Assembly: GCF_030915525.1 (NCBI RefSeq)
Contig: NZ_CP133269.1
Location: 1,265,001-1,329,000 of the forward strand
Origin: Neobacillus sp. PS2-9
GTDB taxonomy: Bacteria > Bacillota > Bacilli > Bacillales > Cytobacillaceae
Reading direction: 5' to 3'
Length of the DNA stretch: 64,000 nucleotides
Each line of letters begins with the position of its first letter. The first letter of the stretch is position 1. A program made the position numbers and the translations under genes. The notes under the pieces are model-generated. The model saw only the letters and a program-made list of their open reading frames with translations, was not told the origin of the DNA and did not search any database. Shown here piece by piece: positions 5,610 through 53,364 of this stretch.

Positions 5610-6428
5610 TTGACAGTAGAATGGATTGCAGGACGTAAATATGATGAGATTTTATATGAAACATATAACGGGATTGCAAAAATTACAATTAACCGTCCGC
5701 ACGTACATAATGCGTTTACACCGAAAACCGTATCGGAATTAATCGATGCATTTGCGTTTGCACGTGATGATTCAAGTATTGGGGTTATTGTATTAACTGG
5801 TGCTGGTGATAAGGCATTCTGTTCTGGAGGAGACCAATCGGTCCGTGGACATGGCGGATATGTGGGAGAAGACCAAATTCCACGCTTAAATGTTCTTGAT
5901 CTTCAACGCTTAATTCGAGTGATTCCTAAGCCAGTCATTGCGATGGTTAAGGGATATGCAATTGGTGGAGGACATGTTCTTCATGTGGTATGTGATTTAA
6001 CGATTGCCGCTGATAATGCTAGATTTGGACAAACTGGTCCTAAAGTGGGTAGCTTTGATGCTGGTTATGGATCAGGTTATCTTGCAAGAATTATCGGACA
6101 TAAGAAGGCCCGTGAAATATGGTACTTATGCCGTCAATACAATGCACAAGAAGCCCTCGATATGGGACTTGTAAATACAGTAGTTCCGCTTGAGAAAGTC
6201 GAAGAAGAAACCATTCAATGGTGTAATGAAATTCTTGAGAAGAGTCCAACTGCGCTTCGTTTCTTGAAGGCAGCAATGAACGCTGATACTGACGGCTTAG
6301 CCGGTCTACAGCAGTTCGCTGGTGACGCAACATTACTTTACTATACAACGGATGAAGCAAAAGAAGGCCGTGATTCCTTTAAGGAAAAACGTAAACCTGA
6401 TTTCGGCCAATTCCCACGTTTTCCTTGA
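5610..6428 (+). CDS. menB: 1,4-dihydroxy-2-naphthoyl-CoA synthase MenB
   Basis: Crotonase-family enzyme performing the Dieckmann-type ring closure of succinylbenzoyl-CoA. 272 residues as usual. Visible: [16 protein letters not shown] (CoA binding), the oxyanion-hole stretch [13 protein letters not shown] and AIGGGHVLH, and [17 protein letters not shown]. The sequence ends FGQFPRFP, a typical MenB C-terminus. It starts at a TTG (5610), with AAAGGAGG 9 nt upstream. Separated from menH by 17 bases. Confidence 0.97.
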
Positions 6429-24167: not shown

Positions 24168-25370
24168 ATGTCAACAAAACGTCGTTTGTTCACTTCTGAA
24201 TCAGTAACTGAAGGTCATCCCGATAAGATCTGTGACCAAATTTCTGATTCCATTTTAGATGCTATTTTAGCAAAAGATGCTAATGCACGTGTTGCTGCTG
24301 AAACTTCAGTTACAACTGGTTTAGTTTTGGTTGCTGGCGAGATTACTACTTCAACTTACGTGGACATTCCAAAAATTGTTCGTGAAACAATTAAAAGCAT
24401 TGGTTACAATCGTGCAAAATACGGATTTGACTCCGAAACATGTGCAGTTTTAACTTCTATCGATGAACAGTCTCCTGACATCGCGATGGGTGTTGACCAA
24501 GCGCTTGAAGCTCGTGAAGGCCAAATGTCAGATGAGCAAATTGAAGCAATTGGTGCAGGCGACCAAGGTTTAATGTTTGGTTTCGCATGTAATGAAACAA
24601 AGGAGCTTATGCCGCTTCCAATTTCCCTTGCGCACAAGCTTGCACGCCGTTTAACAGAAGTTCGTAAAGAAGAGCTACTTCCTTACCTACGTCCAGATGG
24701 AAAGACACAAGTAACAGTTGAATATGATGAGAACGATAAACCAGTTCGTATTGATACAATCGTTATTTCTACTCAACACCACCCTGAAGTTACATTAGAA
24801 CAGATTCAACGTAATCTGAAAGAGTATGTGATCAATCCGGTTGTTCCACAAGAATTAATCGATGAAAATACAAAATACTTCATTAACCCAACAGGCCGTT
24901 TCGTTATCGGCGGACCACAAGGGGATGCTGGTTTAACAGGCCGTAAAATCATTGTTGATACTTACGGTGGCTATGCACGTCACGGCGGTGGCGCATTCTC
25001 TGGTAAGGATCCTACAAAGGTTGACCGTTCTGCCGCTTATGCAGCACGTTATGTAGCAAAGAATATTGTTGCTGCAGGACTTGCTGAGAAGTGTGAAGTT
25101 CAACTTGCTTACGCAATCGGTGTAGCAAGACCGGTTTCCATTTCTGTTGATACGTTTGGCACTGGCAAAGTAAGTGAAGATGTATTAGTTGATTTAGTAG
25201 AACAAAACTTTGATCTACGCCCAGCTGGTATCATTAACATGTTGAACCTTCGCCGTCCTATCTACAAGCAGACAGCAGCTTACGGACATTTTGGCCGTAC
25301 AGATGTGGATCTTCCTTGGGAGCGTACAGACAAAGCAGACACATTAAAAGAACAAGCAGCAAATCACTAA
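24168..25370 (+). CDS. metK: S-adenosylmethionine synthetase
   Basis: 400 residues. Makes SAM from methionine and ATP. Visible: [20 protein letters not shown] at the N-terminus, [10 protein letters not shown] (adenine/Met loop), [21 protein letters not shown] and [19 protein letters not shown] with the P-loop-like lysines. AGGAGG precedes the ATG. 217 nt separate it from the riboswitch terminator; that stretch holds an AT-rich region and a GAGGTTA/TAACCTC stem near 24095-24140. Confidence 0.98.
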
Positions 25371-25403
25371 AAATCATTCGCCCTCAAGCGAATACCCTAA
25401 TAG

Positions 25404-25437
25404 AAGGGAGTTGCATTTTAAATGTAACTCTCTTTTT
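25404..25437 (+). terminator. Terminator of metK
   Basis: About 15-bp stem with two wobbles around 25404-25432, then a T-rich run. Confidence 0.8.
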
Positions 25438-25629
25438 CTTTTTTCGTCTAAATGGTTGGTACGTAATTGGTTATTGGAATAAAATGTTTAAGTAGGTCTA
25501 AAGAAGTGAAAAATGATAGTACGAAAATTACCTATAAGTTCACAGTGTTATTTTAATAAAAAAGTGGTAGTATTATAGAGATGTTTTTTAGAGAATGTTT
25601 AATTTAGATTGGAGTAGGTGAGGTACATA

Positions 25630-49007: not shown

Positions 49008-50636
49008 ATGCAATCTAAGCTTTTAAGAGGAACATTTATATTAACTATAGGAACGATACTTTCCAAAATTTTGGGGTTAATTTACGTTATTCCATTCTTT
49101 CAAATTGTCGGGCGTCAAGGGACGGTCCTTTATCAATTTTCATATGTTCCTTACACCATTTTTATTAGTGTCGCCACAGCAGGTGTACCGTTGGCGGTCT
49201 CCAAATTTATTTCTAAATATAATGCACTTGAAGAATACGCTGTTGGCAGGAAGCTATTTAAATCTGGATTAATGATTATGCTCATCACTGGATTTGTTGC
49301 CTTTTTAGCCATGTATTTTGCTTCCCCTATGTTGGCTGAAATGAGTACACAAGGTGAAAAAGCGAATTTAAAAGATGTCACAACCGTGATGAGAGCAGTT
49401 AGCTTTGCTTTAATTGTTGTTCCGTTCATGAGTTTGATCAGAGGATATTTTCAGGGCCATCAATCGATGGGGCCATCGGCACTTTCTCAAGTAGTAGAAC
49501 AAATAGTACGGATTCTATTTACACTACTAGGTGCTTATGCAGTTTTAAATATTTTCCATGGAAAAATGGTAACGGCAGTTAGTGTAGCTACCTTTGCTGC
49601 TTTTATTGGAGCTATTGGTGGACTTGCCGTTTTATTTTGGTACTGGTATAAAAGAAAGCCGTATTTAGACGAGCTTCTTGAACATGATAAGGGTACGATG
49701 GATATCTCACTCAAGGAAATCTATAAAGAAATCTTTATTTCTGCCTTTCCATTTGTTTTAGTGGGCATTGCGAATCCATTATTTCAGGCGATTGATCAGT
49801 TTACTTTTACAAAGGCGATGGCGGAAATTGGGAAATCGGCGAAAGTCGCTGAATCTTTCTTCTCCATGTTGAATTTCGAGTCGCACAAGATTGTCATCAT
49901 CCCCGTGTCACTCGCAACAGCTTTTTCGTTAACGCTTGTTCCTAGTATTACGAAGGCTTTTGTTGAGAACGACAGGAAAAATATGAATCGGCAATTAAAT
50001 CAAACCTTTCAGGTCTTATTATTCTTAACGCTCCCGGCTTCGATTGGTCTTTCCTTGCTGGCTGAGCCTATTTACACCGTCTTTTATCAGCATGACTTAC
50101 TTGGAGCAGAAGTATTAAGGGCCTATGCACCGGTTGCGATTCTATTTTCTCTTTACTCAGTTACAGCTGCCATTTTACAAGGTATTAATGAACAACGATT
50201 TACAATCTTAAGTCTCCTTGTAGGATTATTAATAAAATTATCGTTAAACATTCCTTTAATAAAAATGATGGAAACAAAAGGGGCTGTACTCGCTACCACA
50301 CTTGGGTACCTTGCAGCCATTATTATCAATATCATCGTTATAAAAACGTATTCTCGTTACCCATTCCGACTTGTTTGGCGAAGGGGTTTATTAATCATGA
50401 TCTTTGCTGGATTAATGTGGGCAGGGACAGAGGCCGTCTATAAGTTCCTATCATTATTCCTATCTCCAGCATTGAAAGGGCAATCTATTTTGTTAATTTT
50501 AGTTAGTGCAGGAGTAGGGGCAGCTATCTATTTTTATTTAGGCTTAAAATCAGGCCTTGCCAGCCGCTTATTTGGAACTAGGCTTGAGCGTTTAATGACA
50601 AAGTTAAAATTGCCAAGAAGGAGGGGTACTGCTTGA
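49008..50636 (+). CDS. ytgP: Lipid II flippase / polysaccharide transporter YtgP (MurJ type)
   Basis: 542 residues from ATG 49008 (GGAAGGGA upstream); the frame is open from 48939. Fourteen or so helices of the MVF/MOP family: LLRGTFILTIGTILSKILGLIYVIPF, GQSLMP-like GHQSMGPSALSQVVEQI, SLTLVPSITKAF. In B. subtilis YtgP (MurJ) flips lipid II, partly redundant with Amj. It overlaps ytzG by 4 bases. Confidence 0.92.
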   Translation: MQSKLLRGTFILTIGTILSKILGLIYVIPFFQIVGRQGTVLYQFSYVPYTIFISVATAGVPLAVSKFISKYNALEEYAVGRKLFKSGLMIMLITGFVAFLAMYFASPMLAEMSTQGEKANLKDVTTVMRAVSFALIVVPFMSLIRGYFQGHQSMGPSALSQVVEQIVRILFTLLGAYAVLNIFHGKMVTAVSVATFAAFIGAIGGLAVLFWYWYKRKPYLDELLEHDKGTMDISLKEIYKEIFISAFPFVLVGIANPLFQAIDQFTFTKAMAEIGKSAKVAESFFSMLNFESHKIVIIPVSLATAFSLTLVPSITKAFVENDRKNMNRQLNQTFQVLLFLTLPASIGLSLLAEPIYTVFYQHDLLGAEVLRAYAPVAILFSLYSVTAAILQGINEQRFTILSLLVGLLIKLSLNIPLIKMMETKGAVLATTLGYLAAIIINIIVIKTYSRYPFRLVWRRGLLIMIFAGLMWAGTEAVYKFLSLFLSPALKGQSILLILVSAGVGAAIYFYLGLKSGLASRLFGTRLERLMTKLKLPRRRGTA

Positions 50637-51352
50637 GAATTGATAAAATGCTAGCTAACCTTGGTTTTGGTAGCCGAAAAGAAGTAAAGCAACTTCTAAA
50701 AAGCGGCTCAGTTAAAGTAGATAATGTTGTGGTGAAAGATGCAAAACAGCATGTTGATCCGGAGAAACAAACCGTCACGCTTAACGGTGAGGTCATTGAA
50801 TATAGAGAATTTATCTATTTAATGATGAACAAACCTCCAGGCGTTTTATCAGCAACGGAGGATAATAATAGTGAAACGGTCATTGATCTATTGGAACTTG
50901 AAGACCAAGTGTATGAGCCTTTTCCTGTTGGAAGATTGGACAAGGATACAGAGGGCTTATTGTTAATCACCAATGACGGTCAATTGGCTCATCGATTGCT
51001 GACACCGAAAAAACATGTTCCGAAGACCTATTTTGCTGTGATTGAAGGAGAAGTAACAGAAGCGGATATTACTGCCTTTGCTCATGGTGTAACATTGGAT
51101 GACGGCTACGAAACAAAGCCAGGTGAATTAAAGATATTGAAATCTGGAATTCGTTCCGATATAGAATTGACGATCACCGAAGGGAAATTTCATCAAGTAA
51201 AAAGAATGTTCGAAGCGGTAGGAAAAAGAGTTGTATACCTCCAGCGTATTTCCATGGGACCACTTGCATTAGACGAAACCCTTGAGTTGGGAGAATACCG
51301 CGAATTAACTGATGAAGAAATCGAGCTTTTGATGAATTATCAAGTGAAATAG
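50633..51352 (+). CDS. ytzG: Pseudouridine synthase YtzG (RsuA family)
   Basis: 239 residues from TTG 50633, overlapping the ytgP stop (TTGA); AAGGAGGGG upstream. N-terminal S4 domain MRIDKMLANLGFGSRKEVKQLLKSG, catalytic motif GRLDKDTEGLLLITNDG with the aspartate, and EGKFHQVKRMFEAVG. Modifies a uridine in rRNA, probably 16S U516-type. Confidence 0.93.
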   Translation: MRIDKMLANLGFGSRKEVKQLLKSGSVKVDNVVVKDAKQHVDPEKQTVTLNGEVIEYREFIYLMMNKPPGVLSATEDNNSETVIDLLELEDQVYEPFPVGRLDKDTEGLLLITNDGQLAHRLLTPKKHVPKTYFAVIEGEVTEADITAFAHGVTLDDGYETKPGELKILKSGIRSDIELTITEGKFHQVKRMFEAVGKRVVYLQRISMGPLALDETLELGEYRELTDEEIELLMNYQVK

Positions 51353-51355
51353 AGG

Positions 51356-51384
51356 AAAAGCAGCTTTGCATGAGCTGCTTTTTC
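51356..51384. terminator. Terminator of ytgP-ytzG
   Basis: 10-bp stem (51356-51365 with 51373-51382), T tail; it also reads as a terminator for the convergent hydrolase. Confidence 0.85.
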
Positions 51385-51387
51385 TAT

Positions 51388-52233
51388 TTATTTTAAAAAT
51401 TGTTGGGGCAATGAGCGAATCAGCGTCCTGTTTAGAAAATCCACTACAAGCTGGTTGAATTCCAATGGTTTTTCCATATTCATCATGTGGGCAGTGCCAG
51501 GAATCACAACTAACTGTGAACCCGTAATCTTTTCATGAAGGAGCTCTGAAATTGCACTGAAATCAGGGAAATCGATATCAGGGGAGATAATCAACGTTGG
51601 AACAGATATGTTCCCAACCAATTCCAATGTTTTCTTTTCTGGTAAAATCATTTTGCCCGTACCGTTCTCTCTAGTTATATTCCCTGACAGCATGGCAGCA
51701 TATTTCTCTATAATTGCTGGATTGATTTCATCGATAGACCGAAAAGGACCTGCGACCCATGCCTTGCACATTAACTCAACTGCCTCTTCAAGGGACTCCT
51801 TCTGAAATAGCTCATTCACTTCTTTATTATAATTTTGTCTTTCAGGAGAGTAATCAGTCCACCCTAATAATCCTGAGGAAGCCAGAATCAGTTTATCGAC
51901 CATCTCCGGATAGGCTAAGGCAAAGTCCATTGCTAGATTCCCACCAACTGAGAGGCCCACAAGTTCCACTTTTGCCACACCTAGGTATAATAATAAGTTT
52001 TTAGCATCTTCTACTAGTGAAAAATCTTCATCGTGATGACTAGACTTTCCACAGCCTGCATAATCAAAGCGAATAACTTGATAGTACTTGGAGAATTCCT
52101 CGAATTGATCATCCCACATTCTTGAATCTAGAGGATATCCATGCAATAGTAACACGGGGCGACCTTCTCCTTTTACCTCATAAAAAATTGTAGCTCCATT
52201 AATCTCAGCAAATCCAGATTGATAGGTTGACAT
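51388..52233 (-). CDS. Alpha/beta hydrolase downstream of the HTH-F1beta gene
   Basis: 281 residues. VLLLHGYPLDSRMWD (oxyanion), DYAGCGKS, nucleophile elbow GLSVGG, acid in ISPDIDFPDF and His in GTAHMMNME. Resembles 3-oxoadipate enol-lactonase and related esterases. The RBS AGGAGG is inside the 3' end of the upstream HTH-F1beta gene, with only 3 bases between coding regions, so the pair is an operon. Substrate unknown. Confidence 0.85.
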   Translation of the reverse strand: MSTYQSGFAEINGATIFYEVKGEGRPVLLLHGYPLDSRMWDDQFEEFSKYYQVIRFDYAGCGKSSHHDEDFSLVEDAKNLLLYLGVAKVELVGLSVGGNLAMDFALAYPEMVDKLILASSGLLGWTDYSPERQNYNKEVNELFQKESLEEAVELMCKAWVAGPFRSIDEINPAIIEKYAAMLSGNITRENGTGKMILPEKKTLELVGNISVPTLIISPDIDFPDFSAISELLHEKITGSQLVVIPGTAHMMNMEKPLEFNQLVVDFLNRTLIRSLPQQFLK

Positions 52234-52236
52234 TGT

Positions 52237-53277
52237 TCATTCCTCCTTTTTTTTGAGTTCACCCACATAGAAAAGAGTCTCCAGATCCACATCATCCATT
52301 TCCCCTTTTAAGATTCGTTGGACATCTGCGACGGTCATTTGAGTTGAAACTGAAACTCCTTTTTTCTTTGTAAAAGGCTCTGTTATTAAAAATGGTTGTG
52401 TAAAATACGCTTCGAGACGAAGTCCTTTGTGATAAGTCTCTCGCTCAGATGCAGGGATTAGCTCCGTTCCTAGAAAACGTAATTCACGATAACGGCGCAG
52501 GATTTTTTTTGCCTGCTGCTGTGTGTGCAATTGTACTTTCGAAAGCTTTGCTCCTTCAATTAGTACCGAAGTAGAATGGAGTGGATTGATTGCTGGGTAA
52601 ATTTTTCGAGAAACCAGCTCTGCATCAAATTGCAACAGGGTATCTAATGGTCCAAATGGATCTTGTTCATCGACAGCTTCACCCCGTAAGTCGACTAACA
52701 AAGTAGTGGGAGTGACTCCTGCATCCTTTAATTTTTCAATGAGGTCGTAAATTTCCCCGGTTAAAACCATTTGCCGATCCGCAGCGAGAAAGATGGTTTG
52801 TTTGGACATGTTCACCATTTTTTCGAAAGCTTCCTGGACAGAGTAACAGACGTGTTTCGTTTCGTTGATGACATCACTTAAACCCAAAGCATCTTCTTTA
52901 GGTTTCAAGAAGAAGGTTTCAAAACCATTGAGGTTCATACGATGGAAAATCTCTGCTAAAACGACAAGCTGACCCATGCCCGGTCGAGCAACAAATCCGA
53001 TGGTACCCCCGCGTGTTAACGGAGCAAAAAGGTCAATGACTTTAATCCCGGTTTCCAGCATCTCCGCATCTGATCCCCTGATGATTAAATCATCCACGGT
53101 GCATTCTGCAAGGTCTGCAAGAGTGACAAGGGTCTTGACTTCAGCACGTGCTAAAGGAATTTTCCCAGTGCAAAGGTTAGAAACGGTGGCGGGACGTAAT
53201 CCGATTGCAGCGGCTGCAACAGTTAGATTAGGCACACGTTTTCGTAATAATTCAACATTCAGTCTTAATTGATCCAT
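52237..53277 (-). CDS. HTH protein fused to a degenerate F1-ATPase beta-subunit-like domain
   Basis: 346 residues. Residues 1-67 form a Cro/C1-type HTH (LTVAAAAIGLRPATVSNLCTGK, then a LADLAECTVDDLI helix). From 74 the sequence follows the F1 beta subunit: LETGIKVIDLFAPL, GTIGFVARPGMGQLV (P-loop position 97-104, where GxxGxGKT has become ARPGMGQL), TLLVDLRGEAVDEQDPFGPLD, YPAINPLHSTS (227-237), KKILRRYREL (257-266) and QPFLITEPFTKKKGV to the end. The central catalytic part is shortened and the DELSEED stretch is changed. ATP hydrolysis is therefore unlikely; it could sense nucleotide or bind a partner. AAGGAGG before the ATG. I know no named family for this fusion. Confidence 0.8.
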   Translation of the reverse strand: MDQLRLNVELLRKRVPNLTVAAAAIGLRPATVSNLCTGKIPLARAEVKTLVTLADLAECTVDDLIIRGSDAEMLETGIKVIDLFAPLTRGGTIGFVARPGMGQLVVLAEIFHRMNLNGFETFFLKPKEDALGLSDVINETKHVCYSVQEAFEKMVNMSKQTIFLAADRQMVLTGEIYDLIEKLKDAGVTPTTLLVDLRGEAVDEQDPFGPLDTLLQFDAELVSRKIYPAINPLHSTSVLIEGAKLSKVQLHTQQQAKKILRRYRELRFLGTELIPASERETYHKGLRLEAYFTQPFLITEPFTKKKGVSVSTQMTVADVQRILKGEMDDVDLETLFYVGELKKKEE

Positions 53278-53297
53278 GGTAATCCTCCTTTAGATAG

Positions 53298-53364
53298 AAT
53301 TACTCTTTAAAGAAAAATAATTACTCTTAAAAGCAATATATATTCTGAATATTCTTTTTGTCAA
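53298..53364 (-). promoter_or_regulatory. Promoter and tandem operator candidate of the HTH-F1beta operon
   Basis: On the minus strand TTGACA (53364-53359), 18-nt spacer, TATATT (53340-53335). Immediately downstream AAGAGTAATT occurs twice, at 53328-53319 and 53307-53298, exactly 21 bp apart, so both copies face the same side of the helix. A likely self-repression operator for the encoded HTH. Confidence 0.6.

Follow-up and report, generated by a model that had tools for sequence, protein, structure and literature searches.

A putative regulator family combining a helix-turn-helix with an apparently inactive F1-ATPase beta-subunit fold

The gene and its neighbours

What would a DNA-binding domain do at the head of an ATP synthase subunit? 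The question is raised by one gene, P0001, in a 64,000-nucleotide stretch of the Neobacillus sp. PS2-9 genome, hereafter the window. A preliminary description had proposed that a catalytically dead F1-beta fold serves here as the base of a helix-turn-helix (HTH) regulator. The coordinates that it gave for the open reading frame (52237-53277) are exact; the strand, which it left unstated, is minus. The features of the gene and its downstream side are the following:

52237..53277, minus strand: HTH/F1-beta-like regulator gene P0001, 346 aa, ATG start
53284..53290, minus strand: ribosome-binding site AAGGAGG, from the sequence
53077..53277, minus strand: part coding for the Cro/C1-type HTH, residues 1-67 (Pfam HTH_26)
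52240..53073, minus strand: part coding for the F1-beta-like domain, residues 69-346
52963..52989, minus strand: rebuilt Walker A loop ARPGMGQLV, residues 97-105
51388..52233, minus strand: alpha/beta hydrolase, putative partner (Abhydrolase_1, E 6.9e-23)
51356..51382, minus strand: terminator-like hairpin past the regulator/hydrolase operon, consensus match only

The hydrolase gene starts 3 nt past the regulator stop, and the two are likely co-transcribed; the same layout is found in three other loci (L034, L035 and L092). Terminator-like hairpins on both strands occupy positions 51353-51385, between a plus-strand open reading frame (50633-51352) and the regulator operon. The genome's own F1-ATPase beta gene (AtpD) lies elsewhere, at G000:C1:213241-214233.

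Protein architecture

Residues 14-66 of P0001 match Pfam HTH_26 above its cut-off (E 6.3e-7; 30.0 bits against 22), in agreement with the Cro-like HTH previously placed at residues 1-67. The model is also matched at E 0.01 in 91 of 105 relatives, and the stretch GLRPATVSNLCTGKI shows almost no variation across 120 relatives, the best 120 of 1064 proteins matched. Both sets are the closest relatives, and the 1064 matches possibly include true AtpD. Since these 120 homologues cover 87-100% of the query, the union of HTH and F1-beta is not a chance fusion.

The rest of the protein is predicted to adopt the nucleotide-binding and C-terminal domain fold of F1-beta. It matches PF00006 (34.9 bits, cut-off 29.5), PDB F1-beta chains (E 3.5e-26) and the NCBIfam F1-beta models (E 1.9e-31 to 2.1e-30), the last with scores far under their own cut-offs; with the equivalog model atpD it reaches 105.9 of the 462.85 bits required. 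All the motifs quoted earlier (LETGIKVIDL, YPAINPLHSTS, KILRRYRELR, QPFLITEPFT, FYVGELKKKEE and ARPGMGQL) are present in the translation, and both structure prediction and structural matches return the F1-beta fold, the absence of which had been named as grounds for abandoning the idea. The N-terminal beta-barrel is absent: the structural alignment begins at F1-beta residue 121-130 of bacterial chains (e.g., 6oqr_D and 6n2y_D). The middle is indeed shortened, as alignments to the genome's own F1-beta by MAFFT and hhalign both lack one segment before Walker B and another after it, the latter including its Arg.

The nucleotide pocket

In the alignment, the Walker A loop GGAGVGKTV of the genome's own F1-beta becomes ARPGMGQLV, and ARPGMGQL departs from the pattern GxxxxGK[ST]. 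The loss of the P-loop lysine extends to the homologues, with Gln in 119 of 120 (the best 120 of 1064) and Lys in one. The sole Lys row, with ARPGMGK, is P0075, a relative whose name points to Neobacillus sp. K501. Ala97, Arg98, Met101, Gly102 and Val105 are invariant in the 105 close relatives, where the P-loop Gly is replaced by Arg98 in 105, the Lys by Gln103 in 104 and the Thr by Leu in 97. More distant copies may have Arg98 or Met101 altered (ARAQVGQ, ALPGMGQ, ARRDMGQ) and retain the Gln.

The Walker B Asp is retained as Asp167 and is invariant in the 105 relatives. The two alignments differ over the catalytic Glu of the GER loop: MAFFT pairs it with D129 (Asp in 41 and Glu in 32, i.e., 73 of 105), whereas hhalign pairs it with E128 (Gly in 52 and Glu in 26 of 105). 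The catalytic Glu thus does not appear to be a fixed residue in the family. On the adenine side, Y227, F296 and F302 are aromatic in 104, 104 and 101 of the 105; they correspond to Y341, F414 and F420 of the genome's F1-beta, which we take to be the adenine-pocket aromatics.

Across the 105 relatives, conservation averages 0.739 over the whole protein, 0.915 in HTH residues 19-54 and 0.967 at residues 97-105; no nine-residue window outside the HTH is better conserved than the rebuilt P-loop, while residues 106-165 drift (0.538). Judging from sequence, P0001 is presumably catalytically dead, and the pocket seems to have been refashioned for another ligand and not left as a relic. The alternative outcome that had been foreseen, homologues belonging to a known regulator family with an intact ATPase, did not occur. 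The proposal as a whole therefore fared well as to the fold and the lost lysine; regulation is an indirect reading, by way of the conserved operator described below.

Operators at the regulator promoter

Upstream of the regulator, the window holds the following features:

53335..53364, minus strand: promoter-like TTGACA-18-TATATT, 11/12, consensus match only
53321..53336, no strand: predicted operator 1, TTGCTTTTAAGAGTAA, score 20.2, best in the window
53300..53315, no strand: predicted operator 2, TTTCTTTAAAGAGTAA, score 18.5, second-best in the window

Operator 2 lies 21 bp from operator 1, and the third-best operator-like site in the window scores 11.0. Both lie just past the −10 element and not over −35/−10, which counts against the explanation that we prefer.

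The operator was defined over the 160 bp upstream of the gene in 110 loci, which gave 102 distinct regions whose boundaries depend on our choice of start codon. Exact TTAC-N8-GTAA occurs 118 times, whereas 30 Markov shuffles average 0.7 and never exceed 2. Enrichment is confined to the spacer of 8, as lengths of 4-7 and 9-13 yield 0-2 occurrences. With one mismatch allowed there are 224 sites against 15.9 in shuffles, and at least one, two and three sites are found in 88, 81 and 42 regions, respectively. A palindromic operator at its own promoter, typical of Cro/C1-type regulators, is thus present in 88 of the 102. Successive operators are 22 or 23 bp apart in 86 of 136 pairs. Counted by score, 48 regions have three sites, 30 two, eight four, two one and 14 none. 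Where sites occur, the penultimate one mostly opens with TTGC.., and 17 bp further on the final one contains a TACTAT-like hexamer; these motifs correspond to −35 and −10.

All 14 regions without a site can be accounted for. Seven loci have operators before an FmdA-led operon (L070, L071, L074, L088, L090, L091 and L110). Three (L037, L059 and L084) have them solely before the adjacent FmdA gene, so not all copies would be autoregulated. Operators lie several hundred bases upstream of the regulator in L012/L150, L052 and L077, and in L112 the start is misassigned and the site falls inside the called open reading frame. At L062 (Lederbergia), in the same place as L012, a 60-aa leader frame without a Pfam match (5785-5967) stands between operators and regulator; a gene that looks TetR-like by eye is divergent from the operators there, and one is also present in L052 and L077.

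How far does the operator reach beyond these promoters? Outside the 170 bp before the gene, 1.01 Mb of locus sequence contains 29 strong sites, where shuffled sequence has 5; many of the 29 precede FmdA. The strict palindrome also occurs in regulator-free genomes and matches 92 of 199 genomes; the 30 loci inspected are part of that search's matches. Tandem operator pairs were seen at seven of 41 single-site loci, all seven before a regulator gene or its leader frame, and the other 34 have no pair. In the window's genome, a large regulon is not supported: the single-site pattern has 14 matches by strand, at 11 places, and its reversed control has 16; among the 11 places a tandem pair occurs solely before the regulator gene. 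Across 14 further regulator-bearing genomes the strict palindrome gives 35 matches against 21 for the control; 16 loci from them, part of the places, include a pair in 11 (nine distinct places), ten of which (eight places) are at the regulator. The exception is L202, with sites of 18.0 and 9.1 away from the regulator. Tandem pairs, then, mark the regulator gene, and lone palindromes are common and near control levels elsewhere. Because the loci inspected are part of the matches, there may be further targets with single or weaker sites.

FmdA and other partners

Gene neighbourhoods of the regulator vary widely over 79 loci (80 were collected, and L102 was dropped as it had no anchor frame). The recurrent partner is the acetamidase/formamidase FmdA_AmdA (PF03069; 85.3 bits for the L083 copy, cut-off 27), found within five frames of the regulator in 13 of the 79 loci and lying upstream, downstream or opposite. 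The next mechanically called frame is on the same strand and within 60 nt in six of the 79, and most copies look solitary. No target besides the regulator itself is therefore general.

The link between operator and FmdA was examined on a tree of 45 rows (43 distinct, with two identical pairs), a biased sample in which 15 rows come from regulator loci and 30 are the best matches of an FmdA search. In one clade of 13 rows (12 distinct), operators lie directly upstream in 12 (11 distinct); the remaining row, L083, is downstream of the regulator in one operon. Among the 32 rows outside this clade, L091 (two strong sites) and L170 (one weak site, 12.8) were flagged, and the FmdA genes of L107, L112 and L157/L188 stand directly downstream of the regulator. 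In one genome (G167), FmdA is 78 kb from the regulator and still has operator sites of 22.4 and 20.0.

Counted by eye, strong FmdA matches (E < 1e-60) occur in 18 of the 40 regulator-bearing genomes versus 21 of the 159 that lack the regulator. We set this co-occurrence aside as evidence, because most FmdA from these genomes in the tree fall in the group without operators.

Some other neighbours were noted. A gene resembling glycerophosphodiester phosphodiesterase by eye is divergent from the regulator and shares its operator array in L145, L146 and L188 (G102, G131 and G027). In L198 (G147:C3), an alpha/beta-hydrolase-like gene, also assigned by eye, is divergent over a four-site array. L189 (G193:C3) has a short FmdA-like match near the regulator (25354-25467, query residues 4-40, in a 59-aa frame), perhaps the remnant of a lost partner.

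Proposed mechanism and alternative readings

We think it probable that P0001 is a one-component transcription regulator derived from F1-ATPase beta, ligand-switched and autorepressing, with local targets. The sequences themselves establish the fusion, the predicted fold, the altered pocket, the operators and the connection of these with FmdA; DNA binding, repression, the oligomer and the ligand belong to the mechanism that we infer, which would run as follows. The N-terminal barrel would have been swapped for an XRE-type HTH, the P-loop rebuilt without lysine and threonine, and the segment past Walker B lost; with these losses, neither ATP hydrolysis nor rotor movement is to be expected of the protein. 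HTH dimers, suggested by the palindromes, would bind 16-bp sites, usually two to four, two DNA turns apart over the promoter. The phasing points to cooperative contacts along one DNA face, so mutual contacts of the F1-beta-like domains may aid operator binding. Since operators overlie −35 and −10 in relatives, bound protein should block RNA polymerase, and their position argues for autorepression. A small ligand in the rebuilt pocket would relieve or strengthen DNA binding; it is probably not ATP, because the phosphate-side residues are lost and the adenine-side aromatics kept. The targets would be the own operon nearly always, FmdA in several lineages and the alpha/beta hydrolase in the window. 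Partners that hydrolyse amides or esters hint weakly at an amide- or ester-like inducer, weakly because most copies stand alone.

The other readings correspond to the three roles suggested in the preliminary description: nucleotide sensing, binding of F1 alpha and simple oligomerisation. If the F1-beta domain only dimerised or oligomerised the HTH, with no ligand, the phased palindromes would be well served by such an oligomer and the drift of residues 106-165 would be expected. A spent pocket is not expected to keep its P-loop, however, and here no nine-residue stretch beyond the HTH is conserved more strongly than the rebuilt loop; use as a mere scaffold is thus argued against, and we regard it as unlikely. 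Quite unlikely, in our judgement, is a domain that signals energy charge to the HTH through binding of AMP, ADP or ATP, which might be weak. The adenine-side aromatics, the invariant Asp167 and the Asp or Glu at the MAFFT-aligned catalytic position speak for it, whereas the P-loop has lost its Lys and Thr, the Arg that follows Walker B is missing, Arg98 is fixed in place of the P-loop glycine, and the partners are amide and ester hydrolases and not energy genes.

Action on ATP synthase itself, with the protein binding F1 alpha or entering the alpha/beta ring and the HTH setting only its own level, would fit the preserved fold and the many copies that look solitary and autoregulated. It is very improbable for a protein that lacks the N-terminal barrel and a portion of the middle, and operators before FmdA, unlinked in one genome, would be needless under it. 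Returning to a ligand-switched regulator, a bolder version would use F1 ring geometry for gene control: pseudo-beta subunits would place HTH pairs at a 22-bp pitch, and an amide- or adenine-like metabolite in the pocket would switch the assembly. Three palindromes, the commonest array, make six half-sites and suit a hexamer; arrays of two and four also occur, and we hold this version as possible and rather doubtful.

Relation to known systems and distribution

Going by its sequence, P0001 is a Cro/C1-type protein and falls outside the F1-beta subunits on barrel, P-loop and score: compared with AtpD, it has an HTH for the barrel, no P-loop Lys or Thr and no segment after Walker B. With XRE (Cro/C1-type) one-component regulators it shares an N-terminal HTH_26, palindromic operators at its own promoter and local targets; to our knowledge, the C-terminal sensor domains of that class are not derived from F1-beta. 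The F1-like ATPases of mycoplasmas (MSC_0618; MMOB1670, the G1-ATPase gliding motor) are likewise repurposed F1-beta relatives and, judging from entry titles, presumably ATPase motors. G1-ATPase (9io5) is among the top structural matches, and the regulator scores far under the cut-offs of the corresponding NCBIfam models (109.4 versus 570; 92 versus 850). AmdA/FmdA acetamidase systems have the FmdA_AmdA enzyme in common with the loci described here; known acetamidase regulators, such as mycobacterial Amd proteins, are of other families.

The literature searched, mostly outside the subscription journals, shows no HTH/F1-beta fusion regulator, in line with the earlier remark that no described family of this type was known to its author. 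Within that literature, this would be a one-component regulator whose sensor domain has no described precedent, and a widespread, apparently undescribed family in which an ATP synthase motor subunit was turned into a regulator that binds DNA and has a refashioned pocket under strong conservation. If true, it gives an example of a P-loop ring protein turned into a sensor. The operator offers an immediate handle for binding, ligand and stoichiometry.

Within the order, 40 of 199 genomes carry a full-length member (E 1e-129 or better). A phylum survey gave matches at E 1e-50 in three of 398; the window's genome and G085, from the same family, account for two of these. Among the best 80 of 267, named carriers include Neobacillus, Evansella, Sutcliffiella, Paenibacillus, Brevibacillus, Cohnella and Caldalkalibacillus. 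Relatives (best 120 of 1064) are called hypothetical protein, helix-turn-helix protein, ATP synthase or F-type ATPase beta subunit, and others; the many copies labelled as beta subunits carry a misleading annotation. Phage matches were discarded: none of 19 records covers 80% of the query, and they look like ordinary F1-beta (24-26% identity in the ten listed). The one plasmid record is a Paenibacillus replicon of 897 kb.

One genome also carries, besides a full-length copy, a 269-aa relative without the HTH (L185:3422-4231, G034:C5); none of the other genomes among the 199 searched gave a second match that strong. Upstream of the gene for this relative stand three operator-like sites at intervals of 22 bp (19.5, 15.6 and 11.6), and the protein is possibly a partner or an anti-regulator.
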